DNA from: a virus
Direction: 5' to 3' (one strand)
Length of the DNA: 32,384 bases
IMG/VR virus record: IMGVR_UViG_3300032083_001665
Location: 1-32,384 of that record
This document shows, one piece after another, positions 1 through 23,058 of the stretch. Positions within the stretch are counted from its first letter, which is position 1, and each line of letters opens with the position of its first letter. The notes under the pieces are model-generated. The model saw nothing but the letters and a program-made list of their open reading frames with translations, had not been told where the DNA came from and made no database searches. The position numbers and the translations under genes were made by a program.

Positions 1-145
1 GTACAGCGGTGAACTATTGTACGGCCATCTAGGGTCTCCAAAAAGTCACGTCCAGGAAAACAAGATAAGAACTGGGAGTAAACACGTCAAGGAGGTTAGA
101 GATGAGGCAATTAGCAGCAGTAATATTACCAGCGAGATTAAATAG
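1..145 (+). CDS. C-terminal part of a gene cut by the window edge; possible small terminase subunit
   Basis: The second forward frame is open from the first base to a TAG at 143-145, giving 47 residues that end in SSSNITSEIK. It overlaps the start of kdsB by 44 bases. The frame matches exactly the one left open at the right end of the window (32164 onward): the last two bases GC plus the first base G make an alanine codon and reading continues without a stop. Joined, the two pieces give 121 residues. The protein was not recognised by sequence. A small terminase subunit is a guess from size and from lying a few genes upstream of terL. Confidence 0.45.
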   Translation, partial: YSGELLYGHLGSPKSHVQENKIRTGSKHVKEVRDEAISSSNITSEIK

Positions 146-872
146 TACGCGAGCTGACAAGAAGTTACTAAGAGAGCTAGGTGGTAAGTCAGTTTTACAA
201 CTGGCCTATGAGAATGCCTGTAAAGCAAAGCAACCTTATGTTGTTGGAATAGCGTCTGACAGTACAGAAGAAATGTTAGATCATGCTAAGTCTTTCTGCC
301 CTGTTGTTATTAAGACTGATTCATCAATTAGATGTGGAACCTCTAGAGTAGCTAGAGCATCTACACATAATGCTTTTGGAAAAGCAGATATCATTGTAAA
401 CGTACAGGCTGACGAGATCGATATTGATCCATCAGTAATAGATAAAGTTATTCAAATGCTCGCAGACGATGTACACTTAGACATGGTCACGGTTGTAAAG
501 AGAAGAAGTAAAAACGACAGCCCATCGGCTAACTCAACTGTTCAAGCTATTGTCGATGATAAAGGGTTACTGACTGATTTAGTTAGATTTACTGAGGATA
601 AAGCTGATTCTGATTACTACGAACATATTGGAATAGCTGGATTTAGAAAAACAGCATTATATAAGTACATGGCACTAAGTCCTAGTGATAGAGATAGGGC
701 CCAAGGAAATGAGTATCTAACTGCTATTGATAATAAGTTTCGAATTGGGCTTGTTAAATATGAAGGATCTTCTAAGGCTGTAAATACGGAAGAAGATCTT
801 GAAATTGAAGCCCCTAAACCTAAGAAAAAGATAAAACGAAAACCGAGAGCTAGAAATGTCAAAAAAGTCTAA
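102..872 (+). CDS. kdsB: 3-deoxy-manno-octulosonate cytidylyltransferase (CMP-KDO synthetase)
   Basis: This protein probably activates KDO with CTP to CMP-KDO, the donor for lipopolysaccharide inner core synthesis in the cytoplasm. The 256 residues match the family from end to end: nucleotide-binding PARLNSTR at 10-17, a GTSR motif near residue 80, VNVQADE at 99-105 (family VNVQGDEP), EHIGIAGFR near 175 and VNTEEDLE at 227-234. The first 234 residues cover the usual domain; a lysine/arginine-rich tail follows. Family members normally have Asp in the VDTxEDL motif, where this one has Asn228, and the QGDEP motif reads QADEI, so activity or sugar preference may differ. The start has AAGGAGG with a good spacer. 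It is the first complete gene of the late block and overlaps orf2 by 17 bases. Confidence 0.87.
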   Translation: MRQLAAVILPARLNSTRADKKLLRELGGKSVLQLAYENACKAKQPYVVGIASDSTEEMLDHAKSFCPVVIKTDSSIRCGTSRVARASTHNAFGKADIIVNVQADEIDIDPSVIDKVIQMLADDVHLDMVTVVKRRSKNDSPSANSTVQAIVDDKGLLTDLVRFTEDKADSDYYEHIGIAGFRKTALYKYMALSPSDRDRAQGNEYLTAIDNKFRIGLVKYEGSSKAVNTEEDLEIEAPKPKKKIKRKPRARNVKKV

Positions 873-1638
873 ATACTGGAGAGACGATCTTCCAATACAA
901 GGTCCTATTGTTAAATGGGAACATTTAGTTTCTTTGAATAGGATTCAGGGTATATCTAATTTTAGAAAATTTGGACTTAATGAAGCTGTAGGAACCTCGT
1001 ACGAGACTATTGGTAGTTATAACGCTCAGTACACACTTCCAACTGCTGCTCAGACACTAGATGTTGTCAGCGGAAGTACGGAAGATGCAGCTGAAGGCAC
1101 GGGCGCTCTTACAATGCGCATAGAGGGATTGGATGCTAACTATGCTGAAATTACAGAAGATGTTACATTAACAGGTCAAACTACAGCTACCACCACGCAA
1201 AGTTTTCTACGTGTAAATGCTGCGTATATACTTACGGCTGGATCTACAGGCTCTAATGTCGGAGTTATAACAGTAGATCAGACAACCAGCGGTACTGTAG
1301 TTGCTGTAATAAGTGCCACTTACGGCGAAGCATTGCAATTGATACAGACTGTACCTGCGGGGAAATATATGATATTGGATCATATGACTATTGGAATAGA
1401 CAAGGGCGATAGGGCGACTGTTCAATTTAGATATAAGATTTTTGGGGGTGCTTGGAGATCAGCTTTAGTAGAGACTCTATATCAGAACTTTGCCTCCTTT
1501 TCATCGTCCCCTGGACTGACATTTCCACCAAAGACTGATTGGGAAGTAAGAGGCATAGTGCGATCAGGAAGTGGCGGTGTTATATCATCTTTTGTAGAAG
1601 GTTTTCTATTTGATTCAGGTTGGTATGATGACTCTTAA
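856..1638 (+). CDS. Putative virion structural protein
   Basis: This 260-residue protein was not assigned to a named family. It is rich in Thr, Ser, Gly and Ala with short beta-type segments, such as GLDANYAEITEDVTLTGQT near residue 95, a composition typical of phage decoration, tail or fibre proteins. There is no signal peptide or membrane segment. The start overlaps kdsB and follows GAGAGCTAGAA. Its last residues (FLFDSGWYDDS) lie inside a 93-base segment that recurs at the end of the deformylase gene, so the two proteins share nearly the same C-terminal tail. Its position upstream of terL fits a virion component expressed late. Function is inferred from composition and position only. Confidence 0.6.
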   Translation: MSKKSKYWRDDLPIQGPIVKWEHLVSLNRIQGISNFRKFGLNEAVGTSYETIGSYNAQYTLPTAAQTLDVVSGSTEDAAEGTGALTMRIEGLDANYAEITEDVTLTGQTTATTTQSFLRVNAAYILTAGSTGSNVGVITVDQTTSGTVVAVISATYGEALQLIQTVPAGKYMILDHMTIGIDKGDRATVQFRYKIFGGAWRSALVETLYQNFASFSSSPGLTFPPKTDWEVRGIVRSGSGGVISSFVEGFLFDSGWYDDS

Positions 1639-1694
1639 AGAGTTACGACATAAATTTGATAAACTAACTAACAAACAAAAGAGTTTGTTTAATT
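1602..1694 (+). repeat. Direct repeat, copy 1 (orf2/deformylase junction)
   Basis: This 93-base segment aligns without gaps to 2320-2412, with 78 identical positions by hand count (about 84%). It spans the end of orf2, the overlapping start ATG at 1628 and the first 22 codons of the deformylase frame. The second copy spans the end of the deformylase gene and the start of terL. The copies bracket the deformylase cassette. Confidence 0.85.
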
Positions 1695-2356
1695 TATTTT
1701 TAGGTTTTTGCATGATAAGAGAAATCGTGAAATTTGGCCACCCTGTTCTAAGGGCAAAAGCCAAAGAGATTGATACACTAACAAACCGTATCACAACATT
1801 AATTGCTGATTTATCTGAAACCGTTGATGCCGATTCTAACGGGGTTGGTGTATGTGCTCCTCAAGTTAACGAGTCCCTTAGGATTTTTGTAATTCATCAA
1901 GAGCGAGCTCATGAAGTCATGCAATCCATTTTAAAATACGAGCAGGAAGACTACGAGCCAAAGGCATTTTCTGAAAAGAAAAATATTGGTGTTTATATTA
2001 ACCCTAAAATTCTTTCATTTTCAGAAGAGGAATGGACCTATCCTGAGGGTTGTCTCTCAACCCCTACACTCTATGGTGATGTAACAAGGCCTTGGGAAAT
2101 TGAAGTTGAGGCACTAGATGAAGATTTTAAACCTTTTAAAAAAACCTTAGTAGGCTATGAGGCTAGAGTCTTTCTTCATGAAAATGATCACTTAAATGGT
2201 GTTTTATTTATTGATCGCTTAGATAAAAAAGAGCGAAAGAAGATGACAAATGCTATGCAAGAACTTAAGAAGAAGTTCAAAGAATATAACAAGCAGTTTG
2301 CATCCTTTAAAACGTCCGATTTTATATTCGATAATGGTTGGTATAATGAATCTTAA
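1628..2356 (+). CDS. def: Peptide deformylase with terminase-derived N-terminal extension
   Basis: This enzyme removes the formyl group from the N-terminal methionine of new proteins in the cytoplasm using a bound metal. All three family motifs are present: GVGVCAPQV (family GxGxxAPQ), EGCLS at 140-144 with the metal-binding cysteine, and HENDH at 184-188 with both metal-binding histidines and the catalytic Glu. The ordinary enzyme appears to begin at Met29 (base 1712, MIREIVKFGHPVLR). The 28 residues before it match the N-terminus of the large terminase downstream (MTLKELRHKFDKLTNKQKSL versus MNLKDLRFKFDKLTPKQKSL). The last residues, FIFDNGWYNES, match the end of the preceding gene. ATG 1628 is chosen because it corresponds to the terL start in the repeat and overlaps the orf2 stop, suggesting translational coupling. 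Phage deformylases are known in marine phages. Confidence 0.9.
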   Translation: MTLKELRHKFDKLTNKQKSLFNLFLGFCMIREIVKFGHPVLRAKAKEIDTLTNRITTLIADLSETVDADSNGVGVCAPQVNESLRIFVIHQERAHEVMQSILKYEQEDYEPKAFSEKKNIGVYINPKILSFSEEEWTYPEGCLSTPTLYGDVTRPWEIEVEALDEDFKPFKKTLVGYEARVFLHENDHLNGVLFIDRLDKKERKKMTNAMQELKKKFKEYNKQFASFKTSDFIFDNGWYNES

Positions 2357-2412
2357 AGATTTACGATTTAAATTTGATAAATTAACTCCCAAGCAAAAGA
2401 GTTTGTTTTATT
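2320..2412 (+). repeat. Direct repeat, copy 2 (deformylase/terL junction)
   Basis: This is the partner of 1602-1694, offset by exactly 718 bases. It carries the end of the deformylase gene, the overlapping terL ATG at 2346 and the first 22 codons of terL. The match extends to both sides of the stop/start overlap, so it is a duplicated gene junction rather than a shared protein motif. Confidence 0.85.
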
Positions 2413-3680
2413 CAGCTCTATCTGATCAAGAACGAGTTATGATTGCTAAATCATGGGCATTTTTGGCACGTAAGAATCAATTAGCACCAGACGAATGGAA
2501 TTCTAATAAACCTTACTGGGTTATTGTATCTGGTCGAGGATATGGAAAGACAAGGACTGGGGCTGAAACCACACTTGATCACATAGAAGAGCTAGGAAGT
2601 CAAGCTAGAGTTGCATTAATTGCTTCTATTTCATCGGATGCTAGGGATGTTATGATTGAGGGTGAAAGCGGCTTACTGGCCTGTGCTCAGAGACGAGGAA
2701 TCGAATGTACATACGAGCCCTCTAAGCGACGAATATCATTCAAAAACGGAGCGGTAGCGACGTCTTTTACTGCCGAGGAACCTAATCGACTCAGAGGACC
2801 TCAGCATACGTTTGCTTGGTGTGATGAACTGTCTTCTTGGAAGTATGATCAAGAAACTTGGGATATGATGATGTTTGGGCTTAGATTAGGCCCTTGCCCT
2901 AAAGTTATTATTACGACAACTCCTAAGCCTAGAAGGTTGATGAGAGATTTATTAACCAGTGATAAAAGTGTTATTACTAGGGGATCTACATACGAGAATA
3001 AGGCTAATCTTGCTCCTCAGTTCTTAAAGGCAATTGAAGAGAGATTTGAAGGTACCAGATTAGGTAGGCAGGAAATATATGGGGATTTATTAGAAGACAA
3101 TCCAGATGCTCTATGGCAGCCTGCGATGATAGAATCGACAAGAATACATGATATCATGCATATTGATGATTTGTCACATAAATATAATATAACAAGAATA
3201 GTTGTTGCAGTAGATCCTGCAGTTACAAGTGGAGATAATGCAGATGAAACAGGTGTTGTTGTGGCCGCAAAATGTGAAGATGGTACATTCCTTGTGCTCG
3301 ATGACCAAACCTGTAAACTTAGCCCTGACCAATGGGGAAGACTTGTCGTCGATCTTTACCATAAATGGAATGCGGATCGCATTATCGGAGAGGCAAATCA
3401 AGGAGGAGATCTTATTGAATCCTTACTCAGAAATATTGATAGATCAATACCATATAGATCTGTAAGAGCGACAAAAGGAAAGAGAACAAGAGCGGAACCG
3501 ATATCAGCACTGTATGAACAAGGTAAAGTTCGTCATGTTGGTTGTTTTGATAAATTAGAAGATCAAATGTGTATGTTTACTGCTGATAATTTTGACGGAA
3601 GTCCAGATAGAGTAGACGCCCTTGTATGGGCCCTAACTGAACTGTCCGCCAGTAAGAAAGGTGGGATATCATTTATCTGA
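2346..3680 (+). CDS. terL: Terminase large subunit
   Basis: This is the ATP-driven motor and nuclease that packages DNA into the prohead through the portal. The N-terminal ATPase has Walker A GRGYGKT at 63-69, Walker B FAWCDE at about 156-161 and the coupling motif TTTP at about 190-193. The C-terminal RNase H-like nuclease begins with VAVDPAVTSGD near residue 288 and continues with GEANQGGD. At 444 residues it matches the Terminase_6 type. An upstream in-frame ATG exists at 2334, but 2346 is preferred because it is the position conserved in the repeated junction at 1628. The last 12 bases overlap the end of the antisense gene at 3669-3950. Confidence 0.95.
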   Translation: MNLKDLRFKFDKLTPKQKSLFYSALSDQERVMIAKSWAFLARKNQLAPDEWNSNKPYWVIVSGRGYGKTRTGAETTLDHIEELGSQARVALIASISSDARDVMIEGESGLLACAQRRGIECTYEPSKRRISFKNGAVATSFTAEEPNRLRGPQHTFAWCDELSSWKYDQETWDMMMFGLRLGPCPKVIITTTPKPRRLMRDLLTSDKSVITRGSTYENKANLAPQFLKAIEERFEGTRLGRQEIYGDLLEDNPDALWQPAMIESTRIHDIMHIDDLSHKYNITRIVVAVDPAVTSGDNADETGVVVAAKCEDGTFLVLDDQTCKLSPDQWGRLVVDLYHKWNADRIIGEANQGGDLIESLLRNIDRSIPYRSVRATKGKRTRAEPISALYEQGKVRHVGCFDKLEDQMCMFTADNFDGSPDRVDALVWALTELSASKKGGISFI

Positions 3681-3950
3681 TACATCTATTGTATCAACAA
3701 GATCTGTAGGTATTTCACCATCATGATCTTCAGGCGGCTTATTATAGGTCGCCAGTATATGACTTGTAAGTGAATTTAAATTAACTAGTGCTTGAAGCAC
3801 TTCTTTTGGAACACCTTTTTTAGGTTTAATCTGACCCTCGCCGATAGGATATCTTTTATCGCGAGTATAGTCCATTAAGATCCAAGAGATATCAAATAAA
3901 GATTGTATGAACTCTATGCTATTTAAAAGAGACGTTTCATTGTTAGACAT
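3669..3950 (-). CDS. Antisense moron-like gene, unknown function
   Basis: This 93-residue protein is not recognised. It has an acidic C-terminus, no clear membrane segment, and the central stretch RDKRYPIGEGQIKPKKGVPK. It is the only clear gene on the minus strand inside the late block, lying between terL and portal. The call rests on a consensus AGGAGG six bases before the ATG and a near-consensus promoter on the same strand upstream (3977-4006). An independently promoted gene opposed to late transcription is typical of morons or early/lysogenic genes. Its 3' end overlaps the end of terL tail to tail. Confidence 0.75.
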   Translation of the reverse strand: MSNNETSLLNSIEFIQSLFDISWILMDYTRDKRYPIGEGQIKPKKGVPKEVLQALVNLNSLTSHILATYNKPPEDHDGEIPTDLVDTIDVSDK

Positions 3951-4023: not shown

Positions 4024-6069
4024 ATGGGAATTTTTGATTACGTAAAGAACATGTTTGCAACGAAGGGTATAGAAACAGGAATATCTGCCTTTAAGGATGG
4101 ACAAGCACAGTACCCTACTGATAATTTCTTGGATAATGCTTTAGGCGGCTATGGAAAAAATGAAGTTGTATATGCATGTATTCAGGAGATTTCATCTTCT
4201 TTAGCTGAAGCTCCTATTGAGTCATTAGACATGGATGGGCTTCCAGTACAGGCCGATGGAACTGTTGCCTTAATTAGAAAACCTAATCCTTTTATGTCAC
4301 AATATGAGTTTTGGGAAACAACAGTAAACCACCTATATCTTGCAGGTAATGCATACTGGTTAAAAGTAAAGACGGGACGTGGAAAGGTTAAAGAACTGTG
4401 GCCACTTAGACCTGATAGAATGAGAATAGTTCCTGATAAGGATAAATACATAAAACACTATCTTTACAATCTTGACGGTAAAAACCATCCTATTAGTGCA
4501 GATGATATTGTGCATTTTAAATTTCCTAATCCGTCAGATGATGTAATGGGTATGTCTCCTTTACGGCCTGCGCTTCGTCAAATAGCAACTGACAATGATG
4601 CTACAGATTTTTCCAAGGTAATGCTGCAAAACGGCGGTGTTCCTTCTGGAATACTTAAAATACCTGAGCCTTTATCGAGAGAAGCTAGGCAGCGAATTAA
4701 AAGTCAATGGAAACAATCTTACGGCGGCTCTTCACGAGGTGAAATAGCTGTCCTAGAGGGCGATACATCTTTTGAGCAGATTAGTATGGATATGCAGTCA
4801 TTAGCATTCGCTGACCTACGAGGAATCAGTGAAAGTAGGATATGTATGGTATTTGGAGTACCTCCAATTGTCATTGGTGCTAAAGTAGGGCTAGATAAAG
4901 CAAGTTATGCTAACTACAAGGAAGCAAGAGAGTCTTTCTGGGAAGAAACAATATCAGCTCTTCATAAGCGACTGTCTTCAAAGATTGAATCTGATAGTGA
5001 TTTAAATCCGTTTAAACGTGCATTTATGTTTGACACTAGTAAAGTATCGGCATACAGTGATAAACGTCAGCAGAACTTTAATAACGCTATTCTAGGGCTT
5101 CAATCTGGTATACTTACCATTGACGAAGCTAGAGCCGAGATAGGCAGAGATCCTATAGGCGATAACGGGCCTGAACAGCCAGACCCTGAACCTGAGCCGG
5201 CTGTAGAAGATGTTAAAGAAGAGGAAGTTAAGTCTCTATCAACAGAACTAGAAAAGAAACAACGTGAACTGGACTTACTTCAGCAAAGCTTAGGTATGCT
5301 AAGCTCAGCAGACAAGTACTATGACAGATTTGAACACTGGGCAAAGAAAGAGTTCAAAAGACAAGGTAAACAGTTTGCAACATTGTTAGACCAATTCGCA
5401 GAGGTTACAGAAACAAAGAATATTGATGACGATATTCCTTTACCTGATGTTAATTTGGATAAAGTAATGGCTGAGTTAGGTGCCTTAGAGATTATATGGA
5501 CAGAGCACGCAAAGGAAAGTGTTGAACCTATAATGAAGGGTCTAATGTCCGAAGCTGGTTTATCGGCTGCATCTAGTTTAGATACAGATATTACGCTATC
5601 TAATGAGCAGATATTAACATTCATTGCTGAACATAACTACAAATTTGCAAACAGTATATCAAAGAGTAGTGTTGAAACAATAAGAAAATCTGTACAGAAA
5701 GCTTTTGAGGAAGGTACTTCTTTAAAGGCCTTAAAAGACGAGCTTAAGGACAAGTTCGCAGGACAGATTAGTAAAAACAGAGCAACAATGATAGCTAGGA
5801 CGGAAACAATAAGAGCCGCAAATGAAGGTGCAAGAGCTGTTTACAAAGGAGCTGGAGTAACTAAAATGACTTGGATAGCAAGTAGTGATGCTTGTCCTTA
5901 TTGCAAAGGGTTAAATGGAAAGACTATTTCTGTTGAAGAGAACTTCTTAAGTAAGGGGGATGTATACATGCCGGAAGGAACTAAGAGAGCTTTAGATCTT
6001 TCTTACGGCGACATACCGTCACCTCCTGTACATCCTGGGTGCCGATGTACTATTGTTCCAAATAATTAA
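4024..6069 (+). CDS. Portal protein fused to a MuF-like head morphogenesis domain
   Basis: The N-terminal ~390 residues are an HK97-family portal, the dodecameric ring through which DNA enters and the tail attaches: NEVVYACIQEISSSLAEAP near 43, GNAYW near 120, and the GVPPIVIG/YANYKEARESFWE region near 280-310. After an acidic Pro/Glu linker (about 380-400) comes a helical region and a C-terminal Mu gpF/SPP1 gp7-like domain, with ARTETIRAANEGA near 595, ACPYC (Cys624, Cys627) and HPGCRC at 670-675. The two functions are usually separate adjacent genes; here one 681-residue frame holds both with no internal stop. AGGAGAA precedes the ATG. The MuF part is normally a minor head protein. Confidence 0.92.
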   Translation: MGIFDYVKNMFATKGIETGISAFKDGQAQYPTDNFLDNALGGYGKNEVVYACIQEISSSLAEAPIESLDMDGLPVQADGTVALIRKPNPFMSQYEFWETTVNHLYLAGNAYWLKVKTGRGKVKELWPLRPDRMRIVPDKDKYIKHYLYNLDGKNHPISADDIVHFKFPNPSDDVMGMSPLRPALRQIATDNDATDFSKVMLQNGGVPSGILKIPEPLSREARQRIKSQWKQSYGGSSRGEIAVLEGDTSFEQISMDMQSLAFADLRGISESRICMVFGVPPIVIGAKVGLDKASYANYKEARESFWEETISALHKRLSSKIESDSDLNPFKRAFMFDTSKVSAYSDKRQQNFNNAILGLQSGILTIDEARAEIGRDPIGDNGPEQPDPEPEPAVEDVKEEEVKSLSTELEKKQRELDLLQQSLGMLSSADKYYDRFEHWAKKEFKRQGKQFATLLDQFAEVTETKNIDDDIPLPDVNLDKVMAELGALEIIWTEHAKESVEPIMKGLMSEAGLSAASSLDTDITLSNEQILTFIAEHNYKFANSISKSSVETIRKSVQKAFEEGTSLKALKDELKDKFAGQISKNRATMIARTETIRAANEGARAVYKGAGVTKMTWIASSDACPYCKGLNGKTISVEENFLSKGDVYMPEGTKRALDLSYGDIPSPPVHPGCRCTIVPNN

Positions 6070-21767: not shown

Positions 21768-22265
21768 TTAAGAGTATTGATTATAGCCCCATAGGGCGAT
21801 TAAATATGCATCAATGACATTATGTCTTTTAGATGCTATTGTTTTTGCTGCAAACTTCTGTAGTTTGTCACGCTCATGTTGAGATACTTTTGCAAGCATA
21901 ACAGCATGGTTATCTAATTTATCTTTCTTTTCTTTCCAGGTAGGGGGAGGTACAAACTCTATAAAGTCTGCATTCACTGCCCCTAGCGCTGCCCCACTTA
22001 CCATGGCCATCCTGCACATAGTATTAAAATTACGTAAACCATGTGAGGACGATGCTGAAGCTTCTATTATTGCATGATCTACATGTTCTAGCTCTAGTAG
22101 TTTATTACGTAAATCTAGGGCCATTACGTTAGCTTTAAGAAGTTTTTCAACCTTACCTTTAGGTTTATAGCTGTTTCTTATGATACCGGCCTCTACGAGG
22201 CTCCCATTGTCTATTATGGCATACGAGGCATCATCAATTCCTGGGTCGATTCCAATAACGCGCAT
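21768..22265 (-). CDS. RuvC-like Holliday junction resolvase
   Basis: This RNase H-fold nuclease resolves branched DNA before packaging. The 165 residues have the acidic active-site set: Asp7 in GIDPG, Glu68 in AIIEAS, and His148/Asp152 in KRHNVIDAYLIALWG, plus the usual hydrophobic alternation. GAGG precedes ATG 22265, which is inside the kdsA 3' end (overlap 32 bases). It follows kdsA in the same leftward unit and probably acts with the primase-helicase and polymerase upstream. Confidence 0.87.
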   Translation of the reverse strand: MRVIGIDPGIDDASYAIIDNGSLVEAGIIRNSYKPKGKVEKLLKANVMALDLRNKLLELEHVDHAIIEASASSSHGLRNFNTMCRMAMVSGAALGAVNADFIEFVPPPTWKEKKDKLDNHAVMLAKVSQHERDKLQKFAAKTIASKRHNVIDAYLIALWGYNQYS

Positions 22266-23058
22266 TTACTACCTCGTATATCTTTTGTAATTCAATTATT
22301 AATTCTTCTATATCTTGTATATTAATCATACAAGGTCCATCACACAAGGCCTCTTCTGGACTATCATGTGTCTCTAAGAAGACCATATCGGCGCCTGCAG
22401 CTATGCCTGCTTTAGCAAGTGCTGGAGCGTAGAAACTACCACAGCTAGGGTGAGTAGCATCTATGCATGTAGAAACAGTGACATCTCTGACGCCTAGTAT
22501 ATCTCGATTGATAACTTCAAAGTTTCTCATGTCTACGACAGTATTCCCATACCCAAAGGTATTTCCTCTTTCTATGATGATTACTTCATTCATATTTCCT
22601 GCCTGCCTAATCTTATCAACAATAAAACAGACATCTTCTGGCTTCATAAATGTACCCTTTTTAACAGATACAACCTTACCTGACTTAGCCGCAGCCTCTA
22701 AGAGCGCTGTGTTTCGGCACATTTGGTGAGGTATCTGTATAATATCTAATACATCTTTTGCTTTCTCTATCTCCTCTACGGAATGTACATCTGATGTAAC
22801 TCTAAATCCGTACTTATCCTTCACAGCTTGTAGTATTTTTAATCCTTCATCTATTCCAATCCCTTCATAAGAATCCTTACTTGTTCTATTAGCCTTTGAA
22901 TATGAAGACTTATAGATGATCTCAAAAGAATCCTCGGAAGGATGATTTACACTTCTTAAGTACTGTAGTACACTAAACTGTATGTCCCACAGTTTCTTTG
23001 CCACCTTTAAGGCATGTCTTTTTGATTCGATGGCACAGGGGCCGAGTATCATCTTCAT
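22234..23058 (-). CDS. kdsA: 3-deoxy-manno-octulosonate-8-phosphate synthase, metal-dependent type
   Basis: The enzyme condenses arabinose 5-phosphate and phosphoenolpyruvate to KDO 8-phosphate. The 274 residues align along the family: GPCAIES at 6-12, KANRTS at 55-60 (the KANR signature that separates it from DAHP synthases), TSDVH at 88-92, IIQIP near 106-110, VKKGTF near 132-137, ERGNTFGYGNTVVDMR at 163-178 and LETHDSPEEALCDGP near 228-242. The residues matching the metal ligands of the Aquifex enzyme are Cys8, His203, Glu229 and Asp240, so it is predicted to need a metal. AGGAG precedes ATG 23058. It sits between a MazG-like gene and a RuvC-like gene, in the opposite block from kdsB. Confidence 0.92.
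   Translation of the reverse strand: MKMILGPCAIESKRHALKVAKKLWDIQFSVLQYLRSVNHPSEDSFEIIYKSSYSKANRTSKDSYEGIGIDEGLKILQAVKDKYGFRVTSDVHSVEEIEKAKDVLDIIQIPHQMCRNTALLEAAAKSGKVVSVKKGTFMKPEDVCFIVDKIRQAGNMNEVIIIERGNTFGYGNTVVDMRNFEVINRDILGVRDVTVSTCIDATHPSCGSFYAPALAKAGIAAGADMVFLETHDSPEEALCDGPCMINIQDIEELIIELQKIYEVVNARYWNRPRN

Follow-up and report, generated by a model that had tools for sequence, protein, structure and literature searches.

The locus considered here raises the question of how a peptide deformylase gene (def) came to lie between orf2 and the large terminase gene terL of a phage, and how two genes with overlapping ends survived its arrival. The window, that is, the whole stretch of DNA analysed, is an IMG/VR virus record of 32,384 bases. 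The features relevant to the argument are the following.

102..872, plus strand: kdsB-like cytidylyltransferase gene; it adjoins terL in the relative L003
856..1638, plus strand: orf2 (phrog_8198), the intact upstream neighbour; homologues are annotated as a virion protein in a cyanophage
1602..1694, plus strand: first junction copy, with the native orf2 end and a copied terL start
1628..1711, plus strand: candidate terL-like leader relic preceding def; open in the window, with TAG at codon 5 (1640) in the sister contig L002
1712..2356, plus strand: peptide deformylase gene from its likely native ATG, fused tail included; PF01327; the start is common to relatives
2308..2356, plus strand: C-terminal tail of def, a candidate relic of orf2; lacks 12 nt at 2319/2320 relative to L002
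2320..2412, plus strand: second junction copy, with a copied orf2 end and the native terL start
2346..3680, plus strand: terL, large terminase (PF03237 and PF17289); its start overlaps the def stop by 11 nt

The layout is orf2 - terL start - def - orf2 end - terL. The segments 1602-1694 and 2320-2412 form an ungapped direct repeat of 93 nt with 84% identity and a spacing of 718 (E=6e-22 when the window is compared with itself at full length; from 6e-22 to 6e-30 across comparisons). The 33-nt core of the repeat occurs at only two sites in the window with up to three mismatches allowed, the expectation from 100 shuffles being zero. This confirms the initial annotation, which had described a 93-base duplicated orf2/terL junction flanking the deformylase gene. 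The repeat spans a stop codon together with the start that overlaps it and involves two reading frames. Both junctions retain the 11-nt stop/start overlap. When L002 is used, the homology of the first copy extends back to approximately 1590. There is also a weak additional similarity of the def end to orf2 (1478-1509, plus strand, against 2285-2317), collinear and in frame, with a shuffle p of about 0.006. It is suggestive only, but the original copied unit may have comprised about 220 nt and have been shortened later by in-frame loss.

The frame 1628-2356 is open throughout in the window. Its residues 30-203 match PF01327 (E=1.8e-46; 158 bits against the curated cut-off of 22.8), and the deformylase has matches to 80 PDB sequences. 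The motifs of deformylases are GxGxAAxQ (I), EGCxS (II) and HExDHxxG (III) (PMC5591237). Here motif I is GVGVCAPQ, with one alanine replaced by cysteine, motif II is EGCLS, and motif III is HENDHLNG, with asparagine in a usually hydrophobic position, as is also seen in phage and bacterial relatives. The metal ligands and the catalytic glutamate are retained. Judged by domain and motifs, the gene qualifies as a peptide deformylase, and its product is predicted to have deformylase activity. A bacterial donor of def was searched for and none was found, the best bacterial relative having 38% identity.

The bacterial deformylase relatives begin with MIREIVKF or its equivalent, encoded at position 1712 of the window, and end before the tail; the relatives have neither the terL-like N-terminal segment nor the orf2-like tail. 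Translation of def most likely starts at its own ATG at 1712. The predicted strength of the start signals at 1628, 1712 and 2346 is weak to middling, unremarkable, and does not favour any one of them. In the structure model of the protein, based on ten sequences only, most of the core has high confidence, the extension middling confidence, and the last 15 residues very low confidence; a long C-terminal helix is predicted at residues 200-225 and is followed by the orf2-derived tail.

The native positions of the two ends can be assigned by comparison with relatives of the neighbouring genes. The terL relatives, L003 and others, align through the N-terminal segment, so the terL start is the native one and the segment before def the copy. 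The orf2 homologues (80 relatives) as a rule finish in a strand resembling SASFEGIYIKN, to which SSFVEGFLFDSG of orf2 corresponds; thus this tail is native to orf2, and that of def the copy. The direction of copying indicated by these alignments is clear, namely from orf2 and terL to the ends of def. Apart from L002 itself (locus L146), none of the 80 orf2 loci carries this type of terL. In two cyanophages an orf2 homologue lies directly before a terminase gene (L088, 2468-4877; L089, 2468-4872). Near some orf2 homologues, successive dissimilar small genes have near-identical C-terminal tails (L195, 5275-8191; L181, 5655-6925; L208, 37-885; L168, 5175-5812), for example SSRADGIAxRGKTKGRMI on four genes of L195. 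This last tail was found at eight of the 80 orf2 loci and at no terL loci, and possibly represents a shared tag.

Over 6.3 kb, the sister contig L002 and the window share 98.6% identity; L002 has the same gene order, with a repeat of 105 nt (E=7e-27). The same gene order with unrelated junctions was not encountered, as L002 combines this order with the same similarity; nor was the motif found at unrelated gene ends. Relative to L002, the second copy in the window lacks 12 nt between two TTTTATA repeats, and the most likely explanation is that the window lost TTTTATAGACGG between these short repeats. The base before the terL start in L002 makes its second copy ATGATG, the same as the first copy. 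In the terminase-like leader, codon 5 (position 1640) is GAG in the window but TAG in L002. Thus def of L002 must start downstream, after a four-codon leader, most likely at its own ATG equivalent to window position 1712.

The remaining nearby difference between the two contigs, at 1671, is also in the leader; the def core and the neighbouring ends of orf2 and terL are free of differences. The mismatches number 76, of which 54 fall in a portal gene patch (5001-5500) and 22 lie outside it, in about 5.8 kb. Three of these 22 background substitutions are within the 103 of 5842 nt covered by the relics (p=0.007, in a post hoc test picked after the data were seen), and the relics hold the sole nearby indel as well. 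Such a concentration of changes is expected of decaying scraps, and the leader and the tail are probably decaying copied scraps of the neighbouring genes. The dN/dS ratio between the repeat copies is 0.5-0.8, which, with few sites, is not clearly neutral. The orf2-like C-terminal tail claimed for the deformylase is in frame in both the window and L002; it is predicted to be disordered, and in the window four of its codons have been lost. The claim of a 28-residue terminase-like N-terminal extension stands in that its frame is open in the window. However, it does not hold for a working part of the protein, given the stop in L002, the start at 1712 that matches the extension-less relatives, and the changes gathered in this region.

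The 500-nt portal gene patch, with 54 of the 76 substitutions, is a likely recombination tract or hypervariable segment. Six other substitutions between the window and L002 are clustered in 28 nt of the kdsB-like gene (window 500-527).

The window and L002 are the sole carriers found and, being close relatives, count as a single event. The repeat copies differ by 0.18 substitutions per site, with a rough dS of 0.2-0.25 from under 20 synonymous sites. This lies between the divergence of the window from L002 (about 0.004 per site) and that from L003, where fourfold sites are saturated (0.73). The def leader resembles terL of the window and not terL of L003; thus the copying happened in this lineage, after the L003 split. 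Dating the repeats by divergence, as had been proposed, places the duplication in all likelihood far before the window/L002 split and after the L003 split, with no finer date possible.

In L003 the identities to the window are 63% for terL, 57% for the portal gene, 48% for the MptE-like gene upstream and 42% for kdsB. There kdsB is followed directly by terL; orf2 and def are missing at this place, and neither was found elsewhere in the 36-kb record (in a search without a positive control). Since kdsB is directly beside terL in L003, it marks the left edge of a variable slot. From L003 it is evident that genes enter or leave this slot, but the orf2-terL arrangement that preceded def is not seen there; loss of def in L003 is indistinguishable from never having had it, L003 being also without orf2.

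No relative with a single orf2-terL junction was found in IMG/VR by the terL, orf2 and def queries, the terL alignment or two junction patterns, and the only near relatives in these searches were L002, with the same layout, and L003, with no orf2 and no def. Among candidates for comparable junctions, L139 was rejected as a ribonucleotide reductase subunit, and L140-L145 were rejected as the pattern is inside frames or beside short ones. A DNA search of the phage collection gave no match. When 224 records (1.7 Mb) were scanned for single genes enclosed by a pair of repeats, no second case emerged, pairs beyond the ten inspected being judged by coordinates, length and identity only. The ten other pairs inspected were paralogous starts, repeats within one protein, shared C-terminal tails and short non-coding repeats.

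The reading that we prefer, with a probability of roughly 0.78, is that def entered where orf2 and terL overlap, through end-offset illegitimate recombination or a template switch that duplicated the junction, and that the spare ends have since drifted. The recombinant would exit phage sequence about 25 codons inside terL, run through the foreign def gene, and re-enter phage sequence at a more upstream point, within the 3' end of orf2. As a result, def would be flanked on both sides by 105 bp or more of junction, possibly some 220 bp. The overlapping start of terL itself would survive within the copied orf2 tail that is now fused to def, and the two spare ends, the terL start before def and the orf2 end after it, would drift as relics. 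That orf2 and terL are intact is explained by their ends being duplicated, not lost; opposite offsets would delete the orf2 end or the terL start and would probably not be survivable. Since the 11-nt overlap is kept at both junctions, translational coupling could be kept, and coupled translation is plausible. The central proposal of the initial annotation, that a metabolic gene was inserted and the orf2/terL junction duplicated in the process, is thus supported. The anatomy of the locus makes it most likely that def came in with the duplicated junction; we infer the recombination route, and also that def arrived when orf2 and terL already adjoined each other.

The insert contains def alone, with no transposase or nuclease gene, and no inverted repeat was found at its ends. 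There are no terminator-like sites, and promoter-like matches number five against 3.4 expected (sigma-70 consensus only). Thus def has no promoter or terminator of its own above chance and depends on its neighbours for transcription.

The same final layout would result from two steps, namely a tandem duplication of the orf2-terL region and then replacement of the interior of the duplicate by def, with a terL start and an orf2 end remaining around it. The additional orf2 similarity at 2285-2317 would suit a longer duplicate that was later trimmed. However, this scenario needs one more event, and no further remnant of orf2 or terL is seen between the copies, so we consider it unlikely. Somewhat less probable still is the arrival of def as a ready-made cassette, either with the flanking junction from a related phage by homologous recombination, or by looping in and out via the repeats as recombination sites. 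Direct repeats of about 100 bp can indeed recombine, and transfer from another phage was favoured by the authors who described LRRHood for their case (PMC3029335). On the other hand, no donor phage for such a cassette was found in IMG/VR or the phage collection, the copies are only 84% identical and are not being kept alike, and a donor merely shifts the first insertion to another phage.

We also considered, and dropped, a packaging or start-signal role of the repeat. That it is a functional element under selection at both places (a signal for coupled translation, a packaging site or a regulatory site) is very improbable. Both copies do have the stop/start overlap, and the second surely starts terL, but the similarity continues far beyond the start, over 21 codons of terL on one side and into the codons of orf2 on the other, and the start signals are of ordinary strength. 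Moreover, the first copy gained a stop in L002 and the second lost 12 nt in the window, and the segment is absent from L003 and was not found at other genes of the window or at gene junctions of other IMG/VR contigs. Chance similarity or an assembly artefact, which might be feared in AT-rich metagenome contigs, can be practically dismissed given the E-values, the lack of any shuffle match and the same structure in a second contig of differing sequence.

Several other features were observed near the locus. A gene for a Fis-type HTH protein, a putative small terminase, is separated from terL by the MptE-like gene, kdsB, orf2 and def (L002, 218-4768; window, 1-2356), and the stretch between it and terL seems to gather extra genes. 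The kdsB-like cytidylyltransferase (102-872), a kdsA-like DAHP_synth_1 enzyme (22234-23058) and the MptE-like gene upstream in L002 suggest a CMP-sugar route. Between terL and the portal gene, a 93-aa gene with no family match lies on the opposite strand (window 3669-3950); it is in the same place in L003, with 48% identity.

Most phage gene gains are visible only as presence or absence of a gene, whereas here the scraps reveal the direction of the joins. They also show why the overlapped genes survived: the shared stretch was copied, not cut. What looks like an N-terminal extension or a C-terminal tail of a phage metabolic gene should be treated with caution, as it can be a copy of neighbouring sequence rather than a functional domain. 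It is tempting, although doubtful, to generalise that gene gain in tightly overlapped phage operons usually leaves a duplicated junction behind; selection would pass random illegitimate joins that duplicate ends and never those that delete them, and neighbour-derived leaders and tails on gained genes would fade with time.

Gains of phage segments bounded by direct repeats are already known. In the Cluster C1 mycobacteriophage LRRHood (genes 43-46), 1.35 kb lies between 29-bp direct repeats that are single in relatives (PMC3029335). As in LRRHood, direct repeats bound the segment gained here, the first lying at the end of a gene and the second ahead of the following gene. However, the repeat is at least 105 bp at 84% identity, as opposed to 29 bp; it crosses an overlapping stop and start and has left in-frame scraps on the gained gene; and single-copy relatives are known for LRRHood, whereas none was found here. 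Like phage morons (PMC3029335), def lies as an additional gene within the structural block, between two of its genes; the relative L003 has no def, but it has no orf2 either. Unlike morons, def has no terminator, has promoter matches at chance level, and sits in a chain of overlapped genes. It differs from a transposon or homing element with target duplication in having no transposase or nuclease gene and no inverted ends. Phage deformylases are also known (PMC5591237). Like the viral deformylases of Vp16 and S-SSM7, that of the window is phage-borne and has the metal-binding cysteine and two histidines of motifs II and III, but whereas most viral deformylases have short C-termini (PMC5591237), here the predicted long helix is followed by the tail derived from orf2. 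Thus this is a well-documented case of a known type of event and not a new kind of system; what it adds is that the repeat runs over a stop and the start overlapping it, that pieces of the neighbours remain in frame on the new gene, and that a sister contig shows these pieces decaying.
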